Assembly: GCF_003384035.1 (NCBI RefSeq)
Contig: NZ_QQAK01000011.1
Location: 62,001-126,000 of the forward strand
Origin: Sporosarcina sp. BI001-red
Lineage (GTDB): Bacteria; Bacillota; Bacilli; Bacillales_A; Planococcaceae
DNA: 64,000 nucleotides
Reading direction: 5' to 3'
Part shown: positions 22,936-39,846 of the stretch, piece by piece
Layout: every line of letters starts with the position of its first letter
Numbering within the stretch: position 1 is the stretch's first letter
Position numbers and translations under genes: made by a program
The notes under the pieces: generated by a model
Database searches by the model: none
What the model saw: only the letters and a program-made list of their open reading frames with translations
Told to the model about the DNA's origin: nothing

Positions 22936-24111
22936 ATGGAGTTTGAAAAATTGATTACCGACTTAGCGGCGCGTCTAACGGACGGAACATTTGTCCGCGC
23001 AACGTTCAGTCAACCGCGCACTAAAGCGGATGGATTGTTGCGCATTAAAGCGAAACCTATTGAGTTGAAAGGTGAGTTGCACATACAGTTTGAAGAACAG
23101 TTTGAGCGTGTGCTGAATCACCATAATATTTCCGCTAACGGTGTCGAGCTGTTTTTGACGAATGTATTAATGCGTTTCAAACAAGTACAGGCCGAATTCA
23201 CAGGTGAAACCATTCAAATACAACTGACCAAAAAGTTTAAAGTTTCTTGGAAGTCGAGTGTGACAGAAACGTCAAAAACTGCTGATTTGTCGCACAATCG
23301 CAAGAAGAATTATTTGCTTGAAGAAGGCACCCCCTATCCATTTTTAATACGACTTGGTGTTCAATCGGCAGATGGACAGGTCAAGAAACAGAAGCACGAT
23401 AAGTTCAGACAAACTAATCGATTCATCGAATATATCGATGATGCACTGATGCATCTTCCGAAAAATCGAACTGTACGAATTCTGGATTTCGGTTCTGGCA
23501 AATCATATTTGACGTTCGCGTTATACCATTATCTTCATATTGAAAAAGGACTTGATATCCATGTGACAGGTCTCGACTTGAAGAAAGAGGTCATTGAAGA
23601 ATGCGCGGAGATCGCGCGCGATCTTGAATACGATCGCTTGGAGTTTTTAGTCGGGGATATTAATGATTATGAGGATGAAACCTCGGTCGACATGGTGGTC
23701 ACGTTGCATGCGTGTGACACTGCGACGGATATGGCTCTGGCACGCGCGGTCCGTTGGGGAGCGAGTGTAATATTAAGCGTTCCGTGCTGTCAACATGAAT
23801 TGTTTAGTCAAATCCAATCCCCTATGTTGGATGTGATGTTACAGCACGGACTCGTGAAAGAACGTTTTTCTGCACTGGCGACAGATTCGATGCGTGCAGA
23901 GTTATTGACGTTATCTGGATATGAGACACAATTACTGGAGTTCATCGACATGAGCCATACGCCGAAGAACATTTTGATTCGTGCGTACCATTCAGGGAAA
24001 CAACCTTCTTCAGAATCCATTGAGCGCTATAAGGCTTTCCGTGATTTGTTGAATGCAAGACCGTTTTTGGAGAATGAACTGAAGTTGGATGTATTGTGTG
24101 AAGGAAAGTAA
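22936..24111 (+). CDS. Class I SAM-dependent methyltransferase (Methyltransf_32 type)
   Basis: A 391-residue protein. The N-terminal part (about 1-110) is of unknown fold. The C-terminal half is a SAM methyltransferase with motif I RILDFGSGKSYLTFALYHYL (about residue 182), VTGLDLKKEVIEECAEIA, and VVTLHACDTATDMALA followed by SVPCCQHEL. The HACDTATD and PCCQ pattern fits the group that includes human GSTCD-like and bacterial proteins of unknown target. AAAGGAG precedes the ATG. The gene ends at a strong terminator before the alternating repeat array. Confidence 0.8.
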   Translation: MEFEKLITDLAARLTDGTFVRATFSQPRTKADGLLRIKAKPIELKGELHIQFEEQFERVLNHHNISANGVELFLTNVLMRFKQVQAEFTGETIQIQLTKKFKVSWKSSVTETSKTADLSHNRKKNYLLEEGTPYPFLIRLGVQSADGQVKKQKHDKFRQTNRFIEYIDDALMHLPKNRTVRILDFGSGKSYLTFALYHYLHIEKGLDIHVTGLDLKKEVIEECAEIARDLEYDRLEFLVGDINDYEDETSVDMVVTLHACDTATDMALARAVRWGASVILSVPCCQHELFSQIQSPMLDVMLQHGLVKERFSALATDSMRAELLTLSGYETQLLEFIDMSHTPKNILIRAYHSGKQPSSESIERYKAFRDLLNARPFLENELKLDVLCEGK

Positions 24112-24114
24112 GTG

Positions 24115-24147
24115 GAGAGCACCTGCTATTGCGGGTGCTCTTTTTTT
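24115..24147 (+). terminator. Terminator of the methyltransferase gene
   Basis: GAGAGCACCTGC pairs with GCGGGTGCTC around a short loop, followed by eight T. Confidence 0.88.
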
Positions 24148-24170
24148 GTGTGGATTGTGGTGGTGGTGCT

Positions 24171-24486
24171 TGAGCGGATTTGTTACTGGCTTGATCACTT
24201 TTAGGCTTACTTGAGCAGATTCAGCTCTCGCTTGATCACTTTCACGCGGGCTTGAGCGGATTTGCCACTTGCTTGATCACTTTCACGCGGGCTTGAGCGG
24301 ATTCATCACTTGCTTGATCACCCCTACTCGCTTGATCACTTCCTCCACCCGCTTGATCACTTTCACCCCTCGCTTGAGCGGATTCGCTACTTGCTTGATC
24401 ACTTTCACGAGGGCTTGAGCGGATTCATCACTTGCTTGATCACTTTCACCCTCGCTTGAGCGGATTCCCTATCGCTTGATCACTCC
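24171..24486. repeat. Phased array of alternating TGAGCGGATT and TGATCACTTT units
   Basis: Sixteen decamer units start at 24171, 24192, 24212, 24233, 24253, 24274, 24294, 24315, 24333, 24354, 24375, 24396, 24416, 24437, 24457 and 24477. Steps are 20 or 21 bp, with one of 18. TGAGCGGATT (type A) and TGATCACTTT (type B) alternate for the first eight; three B in a row follow at 24315-24354, then alternation resumes. Most units are preceded by CT, giving CTTGA. The 10-bp spacers vary (TTCACGCGGG, CATCACTTGC and similar). The array lies between terminators of two convergent genes. The period is not a multiple of three, so it is not coding. It is not a CRISPR: units are too short and spacers are related. 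Confidence 0.9.
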
Positions 24487-24527
24487 CACCTCTCAAATGC
24501 GGGTCCCCCGGTACTCGTTAACATACA

Positions 24528-24564
24528 AAAACCATCCACCTCTCAAGTTGAGAGGTGGATGGTT
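24528..24564 (-). terminator. Terminator of tcyP
   Basis: AACCATCCACCTCTC pairs perfectly with GAGAGGTGGATGGTT around AAGTT; on the minus strand it is followed by TTTT. Also efficient on the plus strand (GTTTAT after the stem). Confidence 0.85.
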
Positions 24565-24566
24565 GT

Positions 24567-25961
24567 TTATAATTCAGACACCGATGTTTCTCGCGCCATC
24601 ACTTCATCATATTGTGCAACATCAAGTTCTCCTGTCGCTCGTGCTGTTGTGACTCCAGCTGTCATGGAACCACTGACGTTTAACGCCGTGCGCCCCATAT
24701 CAATGAGTGGTTCGACGGAAATTAGAATCCCTGCGAGCGCTATTGGGAGATTCAGTGCAGACAATACGAGGATTGCAGCAAAGGTTGCGCCTCCTCCAAC
24801 ACCTGCGACGCCAAACGAACTGATCGCGACAATTGCAATGAGTGTCAAAATGAATTGAGCATCAATGGATTGACCGACCGTTGGCGCAATCATGACCGCG
24901 AGCATCGCTGGATAAATTCCAGCACACCCGTTTTGACCAATCGATAATCCAAATGACCCTGCGAAGTTCGCTATCCCGTCAGGTACTCCAAGTCGCGTGG
25001 TCTGTGTATTGAGTGTCAATGGTAATGTTCCCGCACTCGATCTAGAAGAGAATGCGAACAATAGCGTATCTCCTGCTTTTTTCACATATGTGATTGGGTT
25101 CAATCCTGAAGCCGCAAGAATCACTAAGTGCACTAAAAACATGACAATCAACGCAACATAGGAAGCTGCTACGAACTTACCGAGATTCACAATTGCCCCG
25201 TAATCAGACATTGCAACTGTCCGCGCCATGATTGCGAGAATCCCATAAGGTGTGAGTCGTAATACAATTTTCACGACGGCCATTACCAATGAATACACTG
25301 CATCGATCCCTTTTCGTACGACTGCCGCTTGTTCAGGTTCTTTTCTTCGAATTGTCAAAAACGCGAATCCTAAAAATGCCGCAAAGATTACAACGCCGAT
25401 AGTGGAGGTAGGACGAGCCCCTGTGAAATCGAGAAACGGGTTTGCTGGCAATAAATCCAATAACTGTTCAGGTAGCACTTTGTCCGAAACGCCTGCTGCT
25501 GTTTCTTCCAGCGATACCCCTCGAGAAATTTCCGCATCTCCTTGTACGATTTGCTCTGCATCCAATCCGAACAAGAGTGCAGACCCGATTCCAATAAGTG
25601 CCGCAATTGCTGTCGTTCCTATGAGCAAACCTAAAATCAAGGCCGCCTGTTTTCCGAAGTTCTTCCCTGCTACCACTTTGGTAAAAGCAGTTAAAATTGA
25701 GATGAACACGAGTGGTACGACAATCATTTGCAAGAGTTTAATATAGCCAGTTCCTATAATATTGAACCACGGAACCGATTGTTGAAGTGCGCTCGAATCT
25801 ACGCCATAACTAACATGCAAAATAACTCCATATATAATCCCCAGACCTAACCCTGTAAACACCCGCTTTGAAAACGAAACGTGCTTACGATTCATCCAAA
25901 ACAATATACCCGCCAATAGAAGCAATCCCGCCACATTCAACAAGACAAATCCTGTCTCCAT
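24567..25961 (-). CDS. tcyP: L-cystine:cation symporter TcyP
   Basis: A 464-residue member of the dicarboxylate/amino acid:cation symporter family, importing L-cystine with protons or sodium. TcyP traits are GTGYIKLLQMIVVPLVFISIL, the serine-rich reentrant loop FAFSSRSSAGTLPLTL, GIANFAGSFGLSIGQNGCAGIYPAML and the final VEPLIDMGRTALNVSGSM. The length equals B. subtilis TcyP. ATG at 25961 has AAAGGGGGA upstream. A -35/-10 pair (TTGACA, 17 bp, TAAGAT) lies at 26037-26009. No S-box or T-box is visible in the short leader, so sulfur control, if any, acts through a protein such as CymR. Confidence 0.93.
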   Translation of the reverse strand: METGFVLLNVAGLLLLAGILFWMNRKHVSFSKRVFTGLGLGIIYGVILHVSYGVDSSALQQSVPWFNIIGTGYIKLLQMIVVPLVFISILTAFTKVVAGKNFGKQAALILGLLIGTTAIAALIGIGSALLFGLDAEQIVQGDAEISRGVSLEETAAGVSDKVLPEQLLDLLPANPFLDFTGARPTSTIGVVIFAAFLGFAFLTIRRKEPEQAAVVRKGIDAVYSLVMAVVKIVLRLTPYGILAIMARTVAMSDYGAIVNLGKFVAASYVALIVMFLVHLVILAASGLNPITYVKKAGDTLLFAFSSRSSAGTLPLTLNTQTTRLGVPDGIANFAGSFGLSIGQNGCAGIYPAMLAVMIAPTVGQSIDAQFILTLIAIVAISSFGVAGVGGGATFAAILVLSALNLPIALAGILISVEPLIDMGRTALNVSGSMTAGVTTARATGELDVAQYDEVMARETSVSEL

Positions 25962-34986: not shown

Positions 34987-35210
34987 TGTAACGTCCTCCT
35001 CTAATTTGCTGATAAGTTGAGTATGACAGCCAAATCTTTAGAAGAAGTGTATGGAAATATGAAGAGTTTCTTAAGATGTTGAGTTTTTTAAAATGGAATG
35101 CTTCTCATGGCGAAGCGTGCCTTTTGTTCTTAGTTTTCATTGGTAAAGGGCACTTTTACGCGAGTGGGTGTGCTGTTAGTCTGGGGGCCGGTCCGTGGCT
35201 GATGCTGTTA
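34987..35210. other. Intergenic region without a supported gene
   Basis: About 220 bp upstream of the ABC operon. It holds the presumed promoter of that operon but no reading frame with a ribosome binding site. The repeat array begins at its distal end. Confidence 0.5.
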
Positions 35211-35360
35211 TGATCACTTTTTGAGTTTTATGAGCGGTTTTCCTGGCTTATGATCACTTTTCGGGAGTTATGAGCGGTTTTGCACATTTATGATCACATT
35301 TATGTTTTTATGAGCGTTTCGAAACTTTTATGAGCACATTTCCTAGTTTATGATCATTTA
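35211..35360. repeat. Second phased array, exact 20-bp period, alternating TGATCACTTT and TGAGCGGTTT
   Basis: Eight decamer units start at 35211, 35231, 35251, 35271, 35291, 35311, 35331 and 35351, exactly 20 bp apart. The order is TGATCACTTT, TGAGCGGTTT, TGATCACTTT, TGAGCGGTTT, TGATCACATT, TGAGCGTTTC, TGAGCACATT, TGATCATTTA. Each is preceded by TTA, giving TTATGA, unlike the CTTGA context at 24171-24486. The later units are degenerate. The alternation of the same two decamers shows a common origin or function with the first array. It is not coding and lies between the ABC operon promoter and the flotillin terminator. Confidence 0.88.
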
Positions 35361-35375
35361 CTCAAAACCCTATAC

Positions 35376-35414
35376 AAAAAAGCTGATGTCCCCAGTTATC
35401 TGGGGACATCAGCT
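35376..35414 (-). terminator. Terminator of the NfeD-flotillin operon
   Basis: AGCTGATGTCCCCAG pairs perfectly with CTGGGGACATCAGCT around TTAT; followed on the minus strand by TTTTTTT. Confidence 0.9.
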
Positions 35415-39436: not shown

Positions 39437-39560
39437 TCCGAAACAAATGGGTTGCTTTGCCAACAGCCGTCTGTTATGATAAAGAAGAATTATTTTTGTT
39501 CGGCGCGATGGTTGAGTTCTCTTGACCCTTTCAAGACTTGAGCAAGGATAGTAACACAAT

Positions 39561-39580
39561 GTATGCGAAATTCCGCATAC
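39561..39580 (+). ncRNA. Hairpin in the cold shock gene 5' leader
   Basis: GTATGCG (39561-39567) pairs perfectly with CGCATAC (39574-39580) around AAATTC. The stem stops just before the Shine-Dalgarno GAGGAGG (39581-39587) of the cold shock gene. The long leader of csp genes commonly folds in a temperature-dependent way, so this hairpin is a plausible regulatory structure. Confidence 0.5.
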
Positions 39581-39595
39581 GAGGAGGAAACAAAC

Positions 39596-39796
39596 ATGGA
39601 ACATGGTAAAGTAAAATGGTTTAACGCAGAAAAAGGTTATGGTTTCATCGAACGTGAAGATGGCGACGACGTATTCGTTCACTTCTCAGCAATCCAAGGC
39701 GACGGCTTCAAGACTCTTGAAGAAGGCCAGGATGTAACTTTCGAAATCGAGCAAGGCCAACGCGGTCTTCAAGCTACAAACGTTGAAAAGAACTAA
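39596..39796 (+). CDS. Cold shock protein (CspB-like)
   Basis: A 66-residue cold shock domain protein, an RNA chaperone that melts structured RNA. It contains RNP1 KGYGFIE and RNP2 VFVHF, and the length is that of CspB/CspD. Start is ATG at 39596, nine bases after GAGGAGG; a longer in-frame ATG at 39563 lies in the leader hairpin. It stands alone with its own terminator. Aromatic residues at RNP sites are conserved as in CspB. Confidence 0.93.
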
Positions 39797-39812
39797 TTAA
39801 CTTTAACCTTTC

Positions 39813-39846
39813 AAAACCGTTTCCTCCTATGGGAACGGTTTTTTTA
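39813..39846 (+). terminator. Terminator of the cold shock gene
   Basis: AAAACCGTTTCC pairs with GGGAACGGTTTT around a short loop, ending in T7. Confidence 0.88.

Follow-up and report, generated by a model that had tools for sequence, protein, structure and literature searches.

The REP and BIME elements of enterobacteria are dispersed, intergenic repeats found beyond gene ends, in which two alternating motif types occur in variable copy number. Their units are palindromic, form hairpins, alternate in opposite orientation, and are bound by gyrase, IHF, or Pol I. The iterons of theta-replicating plasmids are direct repeats, each about two helical turns long and with a directional core, that are bound by monomers on the same face of the helix. 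The DNA uptake sequences of the Neisseriaceae consist of a short word repeated over the whole genome, with dialects that differ by species. Bacterial minisatellites, or VNTRs, are tandem units whose copy number varies. The STAR repeats of Staphylococcus are intergenic and made of short conserved repeats, of a different word from the one described here, with variable and longer spacers; we know of no two-turn pitch in them.

The array described here, array 1, lies at positions 24168 to 24486 (+ strand) of the window, by which we mean the whole 64,000-nucleotide stretch that was analyzed. Arrays of this kind resemble REP/BIME elements in being dispersed between genes, in lying beyond gene ends, and in having two alternating motif types and a variable copy number. 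However, array 1 has neither a hairpin nor an inverted arrangement, its units all point one way (16 of 16 on the + strand), the pitch is 20 to 21 bp, and the core differs by species. The sequence-only reading had set the array apart from REP, and that separation stands. Like iterons, the arrays consist of directly repeated units that span about two turns and carry a directional core, and R6K-type iterons have TGAGnG in common with them; unlike iterons, the arrays occur in dozens of chromosomal copies, alternate between A and B units, and match no Firmicute plasmid. They share with DNA uptake sequences a short word that is repeated over the genome and has species dialects, but they are phased, lie mostly in gaps, and comprise several words per genome. 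The likeness to minisatellites is closest in form, since the arrays run head to tail (Tandem Repeats Finder [TRF] period 41) and comprise 9 to 22 units at one site in six genomes; the difference is that half of the unit is invariant and half is free, that the unit is common to many unlinked loci, and that nearly one pitch prevails in the whole family. STAR repeats are likewise intergenic, with short conserved repeats and variable spacers. CRISPR had also been set aside from the sequence alone, correctly: the arrays have blocks of 10 to 13 bp at a pitch of 20 to 21 bp, whereas CRISPR loci have longer repeats, spacers of foreign origin, and cas genes. Formally, the arrays are minisatellites, and they lack the tested defining features of REP/BIME elements, iterons, and CRISPR. 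Among the papers listed by searches of the open-licence full-text literature, none describes such arrays, as judged by title and the opening of the abstract.

Array 1 contains 16 units, A (GCTTGAGCGGATT) and B (GCTTGATCACTTT), which mostly alternate and form a 41-bp A+B dimer. A unit-by-unit listing thus bears out the number claimed for positions 24171 to 24486, and TRF, which is independent of that listing, agrees with a period of 41, 7.8 copies, and a score of 303. The units start at positions 24171, 24192, 24212, 24233, 24253, 24274, 24294, 24315, 24333, 24354, 24375, 24396, 24416, 24437, 24457, and 24477, in steps of 21, 20, 21, 20, 21, 20, 21, 18, 21, 21, 21, 20, 21, 20, and 20 bp. Alternation at 20 to 21 bp had been claimed; 14 of the 15 steps are indeed 20 or 21 bp, but one is 18 bp, and the order (A B A B A B A B B B A B A B A B) is broken once, at 24315 to 24354. 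The irregular stretch, at 24315 to 24363 (+), holds three consecutive B units together with the sole 18-bp step. Constant blocks do exist, but the register given for them was slightly off: the constant decamer begins 3 bp further upstream (GCTTGAGCGG / GCTTGATCAC), with GCT preceding both the first A unit (TGAGCGGATT, 24171 to 24180, +) and the first B unit (TGATCACTTT, 24192 to 24201, +). Nor are the decamers quoted originally found in every unit, as the A unit at 24212 reads TGAGCAGATT and three B units end in CCC, TTC, or TCC. The placing of both motifs on one face of the helix holds approximately; with 10.5 bp per helical turn, arrays with a 20.0-bp pitch rotate by about 34 degrees per step. 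As had been argued, the period speaks against a coding function, because neither 20+20 nor 20+21 is a multiple of 3. Within the window, TGAGCGG occurs 22 times against 6.0 expected, a number that 0 of 100 shuffles reach, while TGATCAC taken alone is not significantly enriched (18 versus 11.8 expected; 7 of 100 shuffles reach 18). A second array, array 2 (35208 to 35341, +), which the sequence-only note on array 1 does not mention, has seven units (35211 to 35337) of the TTATGATCAC / TTATGAGCGG type, some of them variant. It has the same two cores as array 1 but starts with TTATGA, and it keeps a strict 20-bp pitch.

The genome that contains the window, G000 (genus Sporosarcina; 3.52 Mb in 17 contigs), holds 114 matches to TGAGCGG followed by TGATCAC and 117 to the opposite order, with 8 to 14 bases allowed between the heptamers, against 0 in each reversed control. 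Among the matches listed, the gap is 12 to 14 bases throughout, though 8 to 14 were permitted, and the steps are 19 to 21 bp, though 15 to 21 were permitted. The triple of TGAGCGG and TGATCAC occurs 78 times. Chaining of units in 20 stretches around pair or triple matches, together with the window, yielded 32 arrays of at least 4 units, with 399 units in all. Their 367 steps are of 20 (298), 21 (66), 19 (1), 42 (1), and 60 (1) bp, the last being how the 18-bp step of array 1 appears, as chains permit only steps of 19 to 22 bp and their multiples and other steps split or skip a chain. Because chaining itself imposes this range, it is the heptamer pair scan that supports the pitch without bias.

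Units in G000 share one anatomy: a fixed block (GCTTGAGCGG / GCTTGATCAC or TTATGAGCGG / TTATGATCAC), a triplet that is mostly W, and about 7 free bases. In the GCT dialect, the step from A to B is 21 bp in 44 of 49 cases and that from B to A is 20 bp in 37 of 49, while nearly all steps of the TTA dialect are 20 bp. Further arrays in the same genome are built from the words AACCGCTCCAT and AACCCGCTCG. The GC-rich array of the latter (L198, 1713 to 2075, contig C10) has spacers that contain CGAGC, and its neighboring units could form hairpins, unlike those of array 1. At the start of contig C4 (L195, 282 to 1287), two 24-unit arrays lie 539 bp apart, apparently through a recent duplication of a whole array, the unit sequences matching in the rows listed. 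Two contigs, C2 and C4, have arrays close to an end, at a distance of a few hundred bases at most; arrays may break assemblies, in which case their counts are lower bounds.

The arrays are widespread in the family. In a collection of 84,980 species genomes, the exact triple was found in 82 stretches, 78 of them from Sporosarcina, Planococcus, Lysinibacillus, and Filibacter; the four lone triples in unrelated metagenome bins (L108, L117, L131, and L155) are taken for chance. Three successive copies of the degenerate word TGAKCRS match in 101 of 261 family genomes, with as many as 552 overlapping matches in a single genome of Sporosarcina. The reversed control is at or near zero in most and reaches at least 15 in seven of the 261. 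Six of these seven (G014 is left out) carry real arrays with other cores at a pitch of about 21 bp, namely, CGCGAGTATT in G133, G134, and G157, CGCGAGTA in G244, GACGAGTAAA in G178, and GGCTAGTTTT in G261. A search at the level of the order covered the same 261 genomes and gained nothing further.

Sampling that was blind to the word, over about 400 kb each of three more Sporosarcina genomes, found arrays of at least 80 bp with a periodicity of 20 to 21 bp in all three: 11 in G060, 22 in G049, and 24 in G008. TRF clusters had a period of 20 to 21 bp or a multiple in 13 of 19 cases in G060 and in 24 of 29 in G049, counts that include a few two-copy or coding repeats. The words in these sampled genomes include GTCCAACCAA, TGTACGACA, ACCGACCATA, and TTTACGGGCGCG, as well as TTGAGCGG, TACGTTTCGATACG, TATCACCGC, and TATCGGACA. 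TGAKCRS has zero matches in G060, although that genome bears arrays; GTCCRAY triples occur in 13 of 68 Sporosarcina genomes, and several core families coexist within one genome. Among 20 genomes from other families of the class (359 kb in 20 stretches, four of them only 4.8 to 17.7 kb long), 6 of 25 TRF clusters have a period of 21, each with 2.0 to 2.2 copies. Judged by the sequences compared, the arrays are a dispersed chromosomal element of the Planococcaceae whose word varies by species and locus and whose pitch hardly varies.

We give about an even chance to the reading that an array is a lattice of short, directional, sequence-specific putative DNA-binding sites set two turns apart, mostly outside transcription units, and maintained by selection or drive. 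The core would be read on duplex DNA by a single DNA-binding protein or by a few paralogues, and neighboring protein molecules would touch across the two-turn step, coating or wrapping the stretch. The coated stretch could conceivably separate transcription units from one another, as a boundary of an architectural or topological kind. Cores would persist through their benefit to the cell, or else because arrays are spread and maintained by the factor bound to them, which would amount to drive. If so, a large class of cis elements that we did not find described would fill intergenic space in Sporosarcina, Lysinibacillus, Planococcus, and their relatives, and bacteria would have in these elements an equivalent of satellite DNA, with a fixed architecture, a fast-changing word, and recurring places.

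The lattice reading draws first on the contrast between core and spacer. Between different loci of G000, cores of the same type are identical at 2784 of 2880 positions (97%) and W positions at 734 of 864, while spacers are identical at 789 of 2016, or 0.39 versus the 0.34 expected from column composition over all arrays. As the spacers are near chance while the cores agree, recent copying does not explain the shared cores. Orthologous arrays are identical at 1380 of 1400 core positions (99%), 377 of 420 W positions, and 582 of 980 spacer positions (59%). Neighboring units of the same type within an array differ at 99 of 3060 core positions (0.032), 115 of 918 W positions, and 697 of 2142 spacer positions (0.325); the choice of units by a match to TGAKCRS, with one mismatch tolerated, depresses core divergence at positions 0 to 6. 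Positions -3 to -1 had no influence on that choice, and there 1 to 8% of neighboring same-type units differ, compared with 24 to 41% at spacer positions. The lengths of neighboring steps differ in 20 of 279 comparisons, in chains that permit only 19 to 22 bp. The comparisons within arrays and between orthologues used one array per genome and site, leaving out eight further arrays. Fixed blocks with variable spacers at a two-turn pitch, as first proposed for array 1 alone, are thus a recurrent observation.

These figures bear most directly on a neutral origin, in which minisatellite units of 40 to 42 bp slip or cross over unequally in unconstrained gaps and the shared words are relics of an old spread. 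Without selection, divergence should be uniform along the unit, and it is not, either over the core as a whole or at those core positions that played no part in unit choice. Between loci it is again the spacers and not the cores that approach chance, the steps in the pair scan fill only part of the permitted range among the matches listed, and the few changes in step length stand against 697 spacer substitutions. An unconstrained tandem repeat should not show such core protection and step constancy, as far as comparison of these arrays can tell. We consider the neutral account unlikely, yet it has real points in its favor. Dimers and higher multiples do amplify, and arrays grow and shrink by A+B dimers of 40 to 42 bp. 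The sequence-only reading had named a slipped 41-bp repeat with no conservation as the outcome that would count against it; slippage is there, but the cores are conserved. At one site (L208a), arrays of 22, 17, 9, 15, 10, and 20 units are found in six genomes with a constant core and varying spacers, a variation in copy number that a neutral minisatellite would readily produce. Neutral arrays would still call for a mutational explanation of the two-turn pitch and of the protected core.

Orthologous sites speak to both readings. Many array sites of G000 have array-bearing orthologues in related species, with flanking proteins that are mostly more than 80% identical and, in orthologue pairs with an array nearby, the same orientation to the flanking gene; since the loci had been selected by their TGAGCGG/TGATCAC triple, they show which sites match, not how often an array is absent. 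In a less biased test, two anchor genes (tcyP and tyrS) were followed in the best 30 of 68 genomes each by protein sequence. Chains of at least 4 units at 19 to 22 bp lie downstream of tcyP in 17 of 30 genomes and downstream of tyrS in 12 of 30 (16 and 11 without the weak-looking chains of G014 at tcyP and G047 at tyrS), while no such chain was seen in 60 coding controls or 1200 letter shuffles. The pitch, which the sequence-only reading had proposed to compare in related species, is nearly the same at orthologous sites in spite of changed spacers. The array is absent at the tcyP site in 13 of 30 genomes and at the tyrS site in 18 of 30, so no single array is needed, and absence at many orthologous sites also suits a neutral origin.

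The core itself turns over. Among the 30 genomes, the tcyP site has about seven cores: GCTTGAGCGG/GATCAC in G000, G020, G007, and G010; ACCCGCTCAA/ACCCGCTCGT in G267, G038, and G025; TTATGAGCG in G022, where the orientation of the array is reversed; ACCGCTCCAT in G270 and G008; AAACGACYA in G003 and G013; and two more. At the edge of the new array in G267 and G038, two or three units still carry the old word, and the word is therefore replaceable by local mutation and amplification. The array at L373, in G270, has five steps of exactly 21 bp, with a spacer identity of 0.39 and a core identity of 0.84, the latter raised by the choice of units through an exact CGCTC. At the array 2 site of S. 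koreensis (L084, 2590 to 3240), the whole array seems to have been duplicated together with its flank, so that two arrays, of 7 and 5 units, are present.

Such local takeover of arrays by a variant core, seen in the hybrid arrays, resembles neutral array turnover, and a plastic core with several families per genome is hard to reconcile with a single recognition protein. One extension of the lattice reading we regard as possible but doubtful. The Planococcaceae may have a satellite system in which tens to a couple of hundred lattices per chromosome (the latter figure extrapolated from samples) sit at the edges of transcription units and are read by fast-diversifying DNA-binding proteins; site and pitch would be selected, the word would drift as a dialect and sweep through an array when units amplify, and the protein would follow. 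We liken this to eukaryotic centromeric satellites and their binding proteins. If the lattice reading holds, the dialects and hybrid arrays form a natural series for how genome-wide binding specificity changes.

The arrays lie, as far as terminators are visible, outside transcription units. Array 1 is flanked on the left by a gene for a protein with a methyltransferase domain (Pfam Methyltransf_32; 22936 to 24111, +) and on the right by a gene that we read as a TcyP/SstT-like transporter (24567 to 25961, -), the anchor of the orthologous site. A terminator-like hairpin with a T-run (24114 to 24151, +) follows the left gene ahead of the array, and another hairpin of the intrinsic terminator type (24524 to 24562, -) lies 3' of the right gene on the opposite side; a third (35374 to 35413, -) separates array 2 from the gene to its right. 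Over G000, 18 of 28 junctions have a terminator-like hairpin that separates the gene end from the array, while the far side of the array has one in only 1 of 18 tandem gaps, and it is this gene-side position that places the arrays outside; in eight tandem gaps, neither side shows a terminator. The predicted folding of array 1 is no more stable than that of shuffled sequence, whether the array is folded as DNA (z -0.53) or its other strand as RNA (z -0.39), and the one Rfam match in the whole window lies elsewhere. Placement past terminators, lack of structure in array 1, and lack of an Rfam match there all speak against an RNA role, as had been supposed. The convergent setting that the sequence-only reading gave is true of array 1 but incidental more widely: among 457 gaps of at least 100 bp in the sampled stretches, arrays occupy 9 of the 75 convergent gaps, 26 of the 279 tandem ones, and 8 of the 103 divergent ones, with no significant preference (p 0.5 to 0.7), although the ORF calls used were crude and put 7 of 59 arrays inside predicted ORFs.

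This placement would also fit an analogue of the E. coli BIMEs, in which sites for DNA gyrase or another wrapping protein lie at the ends of transcription units and phased AT/GC blocks favor wrapping and remove supercoils. Arrays do lie beyond terminators at those 18 gene ends, a 10-bp harmonic dominates the GC profile in 21 of 32 TRF arrays of G000 and 21 of 24 of G008, and the spacer centers of the TTA type are GC-rich between AT-rich edges. However, in G049 the harmonic dominates only 8 of the 22 arrays and in G060 only 1 of the 11, and we rejected a general 10-bp AT/GC wrapping pattern on that ground. Convergent gaps are not preferred, array 1 lacks a REP-like hairpin, and wrapping alone needs no invariant decamer. 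We hold this analogue to be improbable.

A link of the arrays to a gene family or a mobile element was rejected, the flanking proteins being ordinary and the plasmid and phage matches weak. Thirty of 46 flanking proteins of G000 were scanned with Pfam; 27 had a match and 3 had none, and the scan found no recurrent family, no replication initiator, and no cas family. The sole recurring domain among those scanned is the S4 domain of the neighbors tyrS and rpsD, and two of the proteins are helix-turn-helix regulators of different families. The plasmid search gave 5 weak matches, all to Sinorhizobium (best E value 0.3) and none to a Firmicute plasmid. The phage search gave 14 matches with a best E value of 1 (BLAST with the low-complexity filter on; the best for array 1 was also 1), and viral contigs had 0 matches to the exact triple.

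The lattice reading leaves room for drive, but drive might also act by itself, through a machine for uptake, packaging, or recombination that favors a word, so that arrays accumulate and each species acquires its dialect, as with DNA uptake sequences. Dialects do differ between species and genera, and in some genomes the word keeps to one strand, GTCCRAY being found 19 times forward and 0 times reverse in G060, although in G008 it occurs on both strands within the same replichore. The words nonetheless sit in phased arrays in gaps, and several coexist in one genome. Outside both arrays of the window, TGATCAC occurs 6 times against about 12 expected for the window, and TGAGCGG occurs 14 times in 64 kb against 6 expected for the window. 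We consider this account quite improbable. It is scarcely credible that the arrays are Chi-like stop signals for AddAB, since AGCGG, the Chi sequence of B. subtilis, though contained in the main A-unit words of G000 (the consensus A units of the GCT and TTA types and two further words), is lacking from B units and from many cores of relatives (GTCCAAC, TCCGATA, TACGAC, and CGCGAGT), and the strand of the arrays does not follow one replication direction. TCCAAC and TACGAC resemble sites of the MmeI family, which cuts about 20 bp away, but restriction sites of this type were rejected, as PF20473 has no match in the array-bearing genomes G000, G049, and G060 and is found in 12 of 68 genomes.

With respect to replication, the sequence-only reading had looked toward the terminus; we see instead a weak sign of crowding toward the origin. 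Arrays are more numerous nearer the presumed origin in G049 (Spearman -0.57, p 0.008) and G060 (-0.49, p 0.027), less so in G008 (-0.18, p 0.46), with a pooled value of -0.42 (p 0.0008); the counts are clustered, and the origin was presumed to be at coordinate 0 for G049 and for contig C1 of G060 and at about 2.2 Mb, from skew, for G008. Among 31 strict-pattern loci of G008, 11 to 14 fall in the nearest quarter (p 0.01 to 0.13 by the origin chosen), which does not clearly confirm the crowding, and we regard it as a hint. The strand of the arrays was compared with replication in those 25 of 32 G000 arrays for which gene direction and GC skew give the same answer, the remaining 7 being left out. 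Counted by locus, the GCT type is opposed to the leading strand at 6 of 6 loci and the TTA-T type at 7 of 8, while the TTA-A type runs with it at 6 of 7. The A/T difference between the two TTA types may be strand-biased drift at W positions. On contig C1 of G054, the GTCCRAY arrays in the rows listed lie on the minus strand as far as 0.76 Mb and on the plus strand between 1.19 and 2.25 Mb, followed by one minus array at 3.21 Mb and one plus array at 3.56 Mb.

The single Rfam match of the window, at 39446 to 39844, is to the cspA thermoregulator (RF01766; 86 bits, above the gathering score). It overlaps a small gene (39563 to 39796) for a cold-shock-like protein. Such a match is unexpected in a Firmicute, and the coding part of the gene may drive it.
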